From positions 1 to 45,759 of the forward strand of contig JAGXFS010000010.1 of NCBI GenBank assembly GCA_024637275.1: 45,759 nucleotides of DNA, written 5' to 3'. This stretch comes from Acidimicrobiia bacterium (GTDB taxonomy: Bacteria; Actinomycetota; Acidimicrobiia; Spongiisociales; JAENVV01). Below the pieces are notes generated by a model that had not been told where the DNA came from, searched no databases, and saw only the letters and a program-made list of their open reading frames with translations. The position numbers were made by a program, and so were the translations under genes. Position 1 is the stretch's first letter; the number at the start of each line of letters is the position of its first letter. Shown here piece by piece: positions 23,469 through 25,281 of the stretch.

Positions 23469-24410
23469 ATGCGACACACCACTAAAGTCTCGGGTCGCAT
23501 GTCTGACTCAGAGAAATCAAGAATCCCGGTCGTCGTCACCGGGTTTGTAATGGGAGCCGCAGATCTGGTTCCTGGCGTCTCAGGAGGCACCATCGCCCTG
23601 GTGTTCGGTATCTACGATCGTTTGTTGGCGGCGATCACGTCATTCAACCTGACCAACGTTCGAGTGCTCCTGAAGGGCGAAGGACGGAACTTCGCCCGTG
23701 CCACCAGCCTTCCGTTCATCCTCACGTTGGGATTGGGAATGGGCACGGCCATCGTCGCTCTCTCCGAACCCCTCGGTCGCCTGCTCGACGACCCCGACGG
23801 ACGAGTAGTCCTCTTCGCATTCTTCTTCGGCCTGGTGATCGCCTCGGTCTATGTGATCGGCCGAAGGGTCGATTGGGCGACACCGACGCGAGTCTCGTTC
23901 GCAATTGGTGTCATCGCCGGTCTGGTGATCGTGCAACTCACCCCGACGTCGGGATCGACGGCCCCGCTGGCCCTCTTCGCATCTGGAGCCATCGCGATTT
24001 GTGCCATGGTCCTCCCTGGCATCTCCGGCTCGTTCATCCTCGTAATCCTCGGCCAGTACGACAACGTCCTCGACGCCGTCCGGGATCGCAACATCGGGAC
24101 CGTGCTGATCTTCGGTGCTGGGACCGTGGTGGGATTAGCCCTCTTCGCTCGGCTTCTCCAACGGCTCCTCGCCAGCCGCCATGACGTGACCATGGCGGTT
24201 CTTGCCGGGTTTATGGGAGGCTCGCTTTGGAAGATCTGGCCGTGGCGAACCTGCGTAACCCTCGGGCCAGACGGACACTGTTTGACGGACGCCCTGAGCT
24301 CCCCAACACTCGATAATTATGCGCTTTTGGGGGCGATTCTGGCCCTCATCGGGGCAGGGGTTGTGGTGTTGGTTGACCACTTAGGGCGCGCACCAAATAG
24401 AACCGCTTGA
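23469..24410 (+). CDS. DUF368 membrane protein, probable undecaprenyl-phosphate translocase
   Basis: The 313-aa protein has about eight membrane helices and two related motifs, LVPGVSGGT at residues 33-41 and VLPGISGSF at residues 181-189, reflecting the internal repeat of the DUF368 family. Members of DUF368 (PopT) were shown in other bacteria to return undecaprenyl phosphate across the membrane for reuse in peptidoglycan and glycan synthesis. murI, another peptidoglycan gene, lies just upstream. An ATG at 23499 is an alternative start that removes ten residues. The stop codon overlaps the -35 hexamer of a promoter for the following RNA unit. Confidence 0.9.
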   Translation: MRHTTKVSGRMSDSEKSRIPVVVTGFVMGAADLVPGVSGGTIALVFGIYDRLLAAITSFNLTNVRVLLKGEGRNFARATSLPFILTLGLGMGTAIVALSEPLGRLLDDPDGRVVLFAFFFGLVIASVYVIGRRVDWATPTRVSFAIGVIAGLVIVQLTPTSGSTAPLALFASGAIAICAMVLPGISGSFILVILGQYDNVLDAVRDRNIGTVLIFGAGTVVGLALFARLLQRLLASRHDVTMAVLAGFMGGSLWKIWPWRTCVTLGPDGHCLTDALSSPTLDNYALLGAILALIGAGVVVLVDHLGRAPNRTA

Positions 24411-24436
24411 CACCGCGCGATGCACCCCGATACGAT
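24407..24436 (+). promoter_or_regulatory. Sigma-70-type promoter
   Basis: TTGACA at 24407-24412 (a consensus -35) and TACGAT at 24431-24436 (fits actinobacterial TANNNT) are 18 bp apart. The predicted transcription start is near 24443. The -35 element contains the TGA stop of the DUF368 gene. No protein gene on this strand follows before 25282. Confidence 0.75.
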
Positions 24437-24442
24437 GACCAG

Positions 24443-24585
24443 GCACCGGAGCAATCCGGATGCGACCCCCAAAAAGGGCGAGCAGTTGAGCACGGTCTTA
24501 CCCTGGCGCCGTACTCGCTACGACTCTCGCTTGGCTCCTTCGGGAGTAGAGGCTCCGGAACCCCCAACCGGAGCCTCATTTTTTT
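24443..24585 (+). ncRNA. Candidate small non-coding RNA, about 140 nt
   Basis: A good promoter at 24407-24436 and an intrinsic terminator at 24549-24585 bracket about 140 bases with no convincing gene. Predicted structures in order: a 5' hairpin (24443-24463) with stem CCGGA/TCCGG, extended by GCA/TGC across a bulged A, and loop GCAA; a small CCC/GGG hairpin around 24466-24478; a CTCC-TTCG-GGAG hairpin at 24535-24546; and the terminator. Two runs of five cytosines occur (24466-24470 and in the terminator loop). A 9-codon frame (ATG 24460 to TGA 24489) is present but has no ribosome site. I cannot name the RNA family. It could instead be an independent 3'-UTR-derived RNA of the DUF368 gene. 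Confidence 0.6.
24549..24585 (+). terminator. Intrinsic terminator of the small RNA unit
   Basis: A perfect 10-bp stem GAGGCTCCGG / CCGGAGCCTC with a nine-base loop (AACCCCCAA) is followed by A and seven T (24579-24585). The T run exists only on the plus strand, so the direction is clear. It runs into the stop codon of the opposing FlgM-like gene. Confidence 0.9.
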
Positions 24586-24793
24586 AACCCGTCATCGATG
24601 ACCGATGACGGATCTCGTTTTCGGGATCGCGAATTGAGCCGACGGGCACCGGATTGTCGCCCCACTTGGGACGGCCAAACAGAATCGCATGAGCGATGTC
24701 TTCAGCGTCTACCCAGTAATCCCCGGCGGCGATCCGATCTGCCAGATCGTCGAGCCGCCGATTCCACCACGTCGTTGAGTCCTTCTTGTGCAC
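24584..24793 (-). CDS. Small FlgM-like anti-sigma factor domain protein (second of pair)
   Basis: From the GTG at 24793 the product is 69 aa. Its core, RLDDLADRIAAGDYWVDAED, then IAHAIL, matches the C-terminal sigma-binding helices of FlgM (I..G.Y.VD...IA.AI). The frame is open to a TTG at 24880, but that would overlap the upstream gene by 44 bp and add a residue stretch with no likeness to the family. The tail after FGRPKWG is polar. FlgM holds sigma-28 inactive until flagellar hook completion, but no flagellar genes are in the window, so the partner sigma factor is unknown. It lies 43 bp after the first FlgM-like gene. Confidence 0.65.
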   Translation of the reverse strand: MHKKDSTTWWNRRLDDLADRIAAGDYWVDAEDIAHAILFGRPKWGDNPVPVGSIRDPENEIRHRSSMTG

Positions 24794-24836
24794 CCTTTGG
24801 TATCGGCAGCGACTTGGCTGTAATTGAGGAAAACCC

Positions 24837-25148
24837 TCAGGTTTCCCTAGGTTCCCAACGACCCTCGCGCATGACGGCAACGGCGACGATTTCCGGATCC
24901 ACCTGGTACTCGCCAGATTGAATCAAACCGCGCAGTTCACCAAGTAGGGCCTTGCGCTCCTGAGGGGTGGCCATGGGAGACAAGCGAGGACCGTCGAAGG
25001 GGTCGCCAGTCGAAAAAGGATCGGCCGCCAGCATGTCGTTGGCTGGCATGTCGTTGGCTGGCATGGTTTTGGCAGGCGTCTGGCTCGCCGACTTGGCGTC
25101 GGCCGCGCGATGATTTGGCAAATTCTCGTCGCTATCTGAAGCCCCCAT
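24837..25148 (-). CDS. FlgM-like anti-sigma factor domain protein (first of pair)
   Basis: The 103-aa product (ATG 25148, with GGTAGGA about eight bases before it; a GTG at 25181 is also open) has a disordered N-terminus rich in Asp/Asn/Ala and the repeat PANDM, then the FlgM-type C-terminal motif LLGELRGLIQSGEYQVDPEI with VAVAVMREG after it. In FlgM this part forms the helices that bind the sigma factor and the N-terminus is disordered, exactly as here. With the neighbouring gene it makes two adjacent single-domain FlgM-like proteins. Neither the target sigma factor nor flagellar genes are visible. Confidence 0.7.
   Translation of the reverse strand: MGASDSDENLPNHRAADAKSASQTPAKTMPANDMPANDMLAADPFSTGDPFDGPRLSPMATPQERKALLGELRGLIQSGEYQVDPEIVAVAVMREGRWEPRET
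25031..25065. repeat. 15-bp in-frame tandem repeat in the FlgM-like gene
   Basis: GCATGTCGTTGGCTG occurs at 25031-25045 and 25046-25060, and a third partial copy begins at 25061. It encodes the repeated PANDM pentapeptide in the disordered N-terminal part of the FlgM-like protein and looks like slippage expansion. Confidence 0.85.
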
Positions 25149-25281
25149 GAGGAATATCCTACCCACCGGTAGACCAATCACCTAGCAAAAACAACCGGCG
25201 CCCGGCTGACGTACCGAGCCTTGACAGGCAGTTCCACACGTTGTGGCTACCCCGAACCCCGGTTGGTTGTACGCTTGGCTC

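Follow-up and report, generated by a model that had tools for sequence, protein, structure and literature searches.

A predicted small-RNA gene with C-rich loops in an order of Acidimicrobiia, a candidate trans-acting regulator

The stretch of DNA analyzed here (the window) comprises 45,759 nucleotides of contig JAGXFS010000010.1 from an Acidimicrobiia bacterium. Between a DUF368 gene and a convergent FlgM-like gene it holds a compact unit with the layout of a small-RNA gene, for which the following features were located:

23469–24410, + strand: upstream neighbor, DUF368 / undecaprenyl-phosphate translocase-like gene (PF04018)
24407–24436, + strand: sigma-70-type promoter, TTGACA at 24407–24412, 18-bp spacer, TACGAT at 24431–24436
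about 24443–24463, + strand: 5′ hairpin from the fold, at the predicted transcription start
24464–24475, + strand: single-stranded linker containing CCCCC (24466–24470)
24476–24532, + strand: central long hairpin of 57 nt, with an asymmetric internal loop and apical CCCUGGC (24501–24507)
24534–24547, + strand: third, short hairpin with a UUCG loop
24549–24577, + strand: terminator hairpin, 10-bp stem 24549–24558 / 24568–24577
24579–24585, + strand: tract of seven T
24584–24880, − strand: convergent neighbor, small FlgM-like gene (FlgM, PF04316, below cut-off at 19.3 bits)

Much of this anatomy had been read in a preliminary description as an orphan small-RNA unit, and those parts were recovered. 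The promoter lies where it had been placed, and its hexamers are invariant in all four copies of the genus. The hairpin proposed at the start is present in the fold, as it is in most copies of other families at the same kind of locus, and the perfect terminator stem is followed by its seven T as claimed. Both five-C runs are there, the second (24561–24565) within the 9-nt terminator loop AACCCCCAA, and the TGA stop codon of the DUF368 gene (24408–24410) does sit within the −35 element. With a promoter and terminator of its own, no gene inside and no same-strand gene directly 3′, the unit appears to be free-standing. The central hairpin, the UUCG hairpin and a second related RNA in the window's own genome (G000:C139) had been missed. 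The predicted folding energy of the 145-nt RNA is −64.8 kcal/mol (z = −4.35), and 0 of 200 shuffles went as low; no tRNA or tmRNA was found in the window. A pattern scan of 5 kb gave one promoter match, compared with a shuffle mean of 1.1, and left the terminator unlisted because its 9-nt loop exceeds the limit of 8. Since promoter matches are as frequent as expected by chance, the anatomy alone is weak evidence, and we take the unit as real because it is conserved across species and families.

Five genomes of the same genus were compared, the window's included, and four carry the RNA unit; the fifth (68% complete) had a match neither to the unit nor to DUF368. Over the 113 nt from linker to terminator, G001 and G002 are identical to the window and G004 has one difference. 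Identities to the window for G004, G001 and G002, respectively, are 85, 70, and 71% in the DUF368 gene, 89, 74, and 74% in the FlgM-like gene, and 73, 60, and 60% in the cytochrome c gene, with DUF368 proteins 72–89% identical within the genus. The promoter spacer of G001 and G002 matches at 72% of positions, the hexamers of the genus copies being unchanged. Two stretches bordering the unit were also noted. The final DUF368 codons just 5′ of the −35 element (GCGCGCACCAAATAGAA, about 24378–24406) are nearly invariant across four species, the gene further upstream being conserved far less, and judged from sequence this stretch may act as an upstream promoter or as a site for a regulator. Right after the T tract lies a second terminator-like inverted repeat (CCGTCATCGATGACCGATGACGG, 24589–24611), which differs in sequence in G001 and G002 and is not conserved.

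BLASTN against 59 relatives gave just short, weak matches beyond the genus and no convincing copy; L005–L007 were inspected and dismissed, and L009, L010, and L013 touch loci that covariance models later recovered. Model R1, built from the four genus copies and searched against 138 genomes of the order, recovered copies in family f4. With an E-value limit of 0.1, model R2 (eight copies) gave matches in families f1, f3, f4, f5, and f6, involving 23 of the same 138 genomes; some of its matches were dropped after reading the sequences. Of 395 class genomes searched with model R3 (22 copies), 25 had a match at an E-value of 0.01 or less, and every one of them belongs to the window's own order; among 396 phylum genomes the model recognized a single one, the window's own. 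The class and phylum searches used stricter filters, so these absences are soft. The accepted set comprises 29 copies in 23 genomes from five families of the order, 19 of them in the window's kind of neighborhood and ten at two other loci. The 23 genomes are the 25 class genomes of R3 minus G135 and the doubtful G126.

Candidates dropped from the count were L042 and L060, consisting of a terminator only; L120, coding-like and without a CCCTGGC loop; L061, L063, and L070, in which a C-rich hairpin lies just past a coding region in a different layout; and, as doubtful, L040, L064, and L118 of G126, which have a C-loop terminator and a UUCG hairpin but a rearranged middle. Also left out were a weak R2 match (G119:C51) and reverse-strand matches of the same hairpins. 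Among these, L118 (G126:C363, 4656–4770) has a C-loop 5′ hairpin, a UUCG hairpin and a C-loop terminator, scores 44.2 bits with R3, and is possibly a diverged copy with a rearranged central part. The C-rich hairpin plus terminator after an apparent coding region recurs in L061 (1501–1587), L063 (1501–1570), and L070 (1501–1594), two of which contain CTCTCCCCCTCCCCC; perhaps it is a second C-rich RNA of the order, of 3′UTR type.

The accepted copies occupy three kinds of locus. Type A, the window's kind, occurs in 19 genomes, and all 19 copies lie near at least one of murI, cytochrome c, PF06695/DUF368, FlgM-like and gpsA genes, a count for which longer records of the same contigs were also used. 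The FlgM-like gene adjoins the RNA in 11 of the 19. In those f4 and f5 copies for which an upstream neighbor was detected, an opposite-strand PF06695 gene replaces DUF368 and the promoter is clear, and in f6 DUF368 lies on the strand opposite to the RNA, which is retained. The RNA is therefore not tied to the DUF368 transcript, in line with the preliminary view that it is more than the tail of that transcript. The best upstream promoter match reaches at least 9 of 12 positions in 16 of the 19 type-A copies, the low scores being 8 in G061 and G113 and 6 in G120.

Type B occurs in three f4 genomes, between leuD and a glycerophosphodiester phosphodiesterase gene; leuD lies 5′ of the RNA on the same strand, and a clear promoter was not found upstream. 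Type C is present in 7 of 7 f1 genomes (in the window's genome it is the copy at G000:C139), has no 5′ hairpin, and in G005 and G006 starts near a −10-like box of its own. Its neighbors are GTPase-like and diacylglycerol-kinase-like genes, joined in the window's genus by mscS-like and eIF2B-like genes; for types B and C these names were assigned by reading open reading frames, not by family search. As an observation apart, the type-C RNA of the window's genus (L123, 6517–6620; L122, 5326–5432) is followed, some 60 nt downstream, by an eIF2B-like gene on the same strand, and a cis role is possible there; no same-strand gene lies downstream beside the type-C RNA of G005.

In most individual folds the elements follow one order: a start hairpin (type A), a C-containing linker, a central hairpin with a 3′-side asymmetric loop and apical CCCUGGC, and a terminal hairpin with a C loop. 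Folded as single sequences, G037 and one of the type-C copies depart from this. Several type-A copies of other families carry a C-rich loop in the 5′ hairpin, and several other copies, though not all, have at least four unpaired C in a row ahead of the central hairpin. A hairpin comparable to the third one was seen in type-A copies of f5, f6, and f3 and is absent from f4 and from types B and C; core length ranges from 92 to 119 nt across families. Two hallmarks are nearly constant. Of the 29 copies, 28 have the apical CCCUGGC (G009 has CCCCGGC), and all have a terminator C run of 5–7. When genome contigs were scanned for CCCTGGC plus a terminator stem with the loop letters left free, 42 loci were found, of which 15 had at least five C in the loop, all from one lineage (ten recorded as Acidimicrobiia bacterium, two as Actinomycetes bacterium, and three as bacterium), which is thus placed in Acidimicrobiia. 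The other 27 had at most four C, were scattered over many taxa, one Acidimicrobiia record included, and look like chance terminators.

The preliminary description had also proposed comparing relatives, and this showed promoter and hairpins conserved within the genus and many compensatory changes in other families. In alignment A10 (22 copies), which was fitted to the model and so leans towards its own structure, compensatory change was seen at 20 of 27 pairs, and 96% of cells are paired, compared with 38–45% for slid pairings; 0 of 500 shuffles reached any of five measures. Compensatory change affects 17 of 17 modeled pairs of the central hairpin, and all ten terminator pairs are kept in 22 of 22 copies. 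In a sequence-only MAFFT alignment of eight copies, both partners have changed in 10 of the 27 pairs predicted. Reduced to the seven rows that are distinct, it has 95% of cells paired (34–43% when slid), and 59 of 500 shuffles reached the compensatory-pair count. In a poorer MAFFT alignment of 14 copies, 3 of 19 pairs were compensatory. A10 was used in place of the MAFFT alignments A8 and A9, in which CCCUGGC of some f3 copies was misplaced or the RNAalifold fold was poor. As read from the genomes, the existence of the gene and the conservation, structure, distribution and paralogues of the RNA are well supported.

The RNA fits no Rfam 15 family. At gathering thresholds no family was found in the window, and at E up to 10 the RNA unit gave a single 13-bit chance match and none to RF01066 (6C). 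That match, to the raiA-hairpin (RF03059; 13.3 bits, E 5.4, cut-off 43.7), was limited to the terminator stem and rejected. The suggestion of the preliminary description that actinobacterial C-rich-loop RNAs be considered, 6C being one of them, proved apt as an analogy, but membership in RF01066 did not hold. Its gathering score of 47 bits was reached by neither the window nor 12 member loci; at E up to 5 one of the 12 matched (L065, 34.6 bits), its 3′ part, formed by the third hairpin and terminator, aligning to 6C with the C-loop terminator matched. At E 0.001 none of the 59 relatives matched, in a search that did find the control Corynebacterium, itself below the cut-off.

6C (B11 of Mycobacterium tuberculosis) is likewise a free-standing actinobacterial small RNA, about 100 nt long with C-rich loops, and the last hairpin of its Rfam model is C-looped, as in the RNA described here. 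Whereas 6C has two C6-looped stem-loops, a single C-loop terminator hairpin was found here, and the hairpin before it, unlike that of 6C, carries a different kind of loop (UUCG-type in the window's copy) or is absent. Beyond 6C, the present RNA has a 5′ hairpin, a C-rich linker and the long central hairpin with CCCUGGC. The alignment of the C-loop terminator half to 6C makes a remote common origin possible. The gene neighborhoods of the two differ. For 6C, a conserved place near Ms1 RNA has been reported in mycobacteria and Streptomyces (PMC6582537).

C-rich unpaired motifs are directed against Shine-Dalgarno regions in the C-rich small RNAs of Staphylococcus and Bacillus (RNAIII, RsaE/RoxS, IsrR), which have other structures and hosts and are set beside the present RNA by description only. 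Pairing of 6C is placed at its C-rich loops in a further report (PMC7308464), with another (PMC4046766) as precedent; a review reports that 6C contacts panD and dnaB mRNAs and that a screen found no chaperone (PMC8628891). Repression by sX13 of Xanthomonas depends on the C-rich loops as well as on motifs rich in G close to translation starts, without Hfq, and its stable stems with C-rich loops (4C, 4C, 5C) resemble those found here; it belongs to an unrelated phylum, is likened by description and not by sequence, and the available part of its description does not include a fixed CCCUGGC (PMC3771888).

With these analogues as precedents, we propose, with a probability of about 0.6, that the unit is a gene for a trans-acting antisense small RNA that works in the manner of 6C, C-rich loops pairing with G-rich mRNA sites. 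A free-standing gene would be transcribed from its own housekeeping-type promoter to its own terminator, yielding a structured RNA of about 145 nt that presents three C-rich single-stranded elements on rigid hairpins: the linker CCCCC, the apical CCCUGGC and the terminator-loop CCCCC. These would base-pair with G-rich parts of mRNAs, mainly the Shine-Dalgarno regions; the pairing may block or alter translation in trans without Hfq. Conserved C runs do lie in loops, their exposure being that of the predicted folds. Hfq was found in 0 of 21 genomes, in a search that detected it in 5 of 14 controls. In a target test on 190 crudely called genes and starts from 263 kb of the window's own genome, under a tenth of it, seeds of the RNA paired with start regions no better than shuffled seeds of the same composition (19–47 of 100 shuffles did as well), and start regions were richer in G. 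As this lends no support, confidence in the mechanism stays at 0.6.

An alternative is a structured RNA that acts through a protein or ribonucleoprotein, with CCCUGGC and the C loops as protein sites and RNA polymerase (as for 6S/Ms1), the ribosome, Rho or a C-binding RNA-binding protein as partner. The extreme conservation within the genus and the target test without signal fit such an RNA, and the apical loop, with its fixed sequence CCCUGGC in place of a simple run of C, could equally be a site for a protein. We nonetheless consider such an RNA rather unlikely because length and layout vary by family (the cores differ in length and f4 lacks the third hairpin) and because what recurs is a run of C in loops, as in known antisense small RNAs. 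CsrA as the partner, in a sponge of the CsrB/CsrC type, was rejected: CsrA occurs in none of the 7 f1 genomes, and the 3 genomes that have it among all 21 carry no accepted copy of the RNA. Dimerization by kissing loops, for which the window's apical loop offers the palindrome GGCGCC, was also rejected, because other copies carry CAUC or CAGCC there. That the RNA is a diverged member of 6C itself is improbable, the alignment of L065 and its matched C-loop terminator notwithstanding, as that score lies below 47 bits, just one of 12 loci matched, no relative among the 59 matched, the third hairpin has no C6 loop, no shared neighborhood was seen, and R3 matches nothing else in the 396 phylum genomes.

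An element acting in cis, either the 3′ UTR or terminator of DUF368 or a leader or attenuator of a downstream gene, would account for the position behind same-strand DUF368 in the window's genus, for type B behind same-strand leuD with no clear promoter found, and for type C of the window's genus preceding the eIF2B-like gene. It is very improbable for the family as a whole, since type A keeps its own promoter while the upstream gene is swapped or on the other strand in other families, and no same-strand gene lies downstream of the window unit or of the G005 type-C copy. The unit is open throughout in two forward reading frames, and an ORF of 9 codons starts near 24457; we give a short coding gene practically no credence, as the 113 nt show zero substitutions of any kind against G001 and G002, a 1-nt indel and family-specific loop lengths occur, and changes track base pairing.

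An extension of the antisense reading, to be held only tentatively, is that the RNA is a core riboregulator across the order, with no more than two copies in any genome, placed at loci of three fixed kinds. The near-invariant CCCUGGC and C-looped terminator would then mean that differently promoted paralogues share one partner, be it an essential set of mRNAs, rRNA or a protein; if so, the RNA would be the Acidimicrobiia counterpart of 6C, separately evolved. The literature searched, which covered few subscription papers, held no description of this RNA or of any Acidimicrobiia small RNA. The RNA adds a new family beyond Rfam 15 to a class for which that literature describes none. Its presence suggests that Hfq-free C-rich-loop regulation arose or persisted in a deep actinobacterial branch beyond the range of 6C, and the alignment and covariance model can be used directly to mine transcriptomes and map targets.

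Two observations concern the surroundings of the RNA. Glycine riboswitches (RF00504) lie near it in two f3 genomes (L062, 1751–1931; L065, 2221–2308). The FlgM-like gene of the window is one of two adjacent genes on the − strand (24584–24880 and 24837–25181), which score 19.3 and 19.6 bits against the PF04316 cut-off of 25; both are kept beside the RNA across families, and the pair are possibly degenerate anti-sigma factors.
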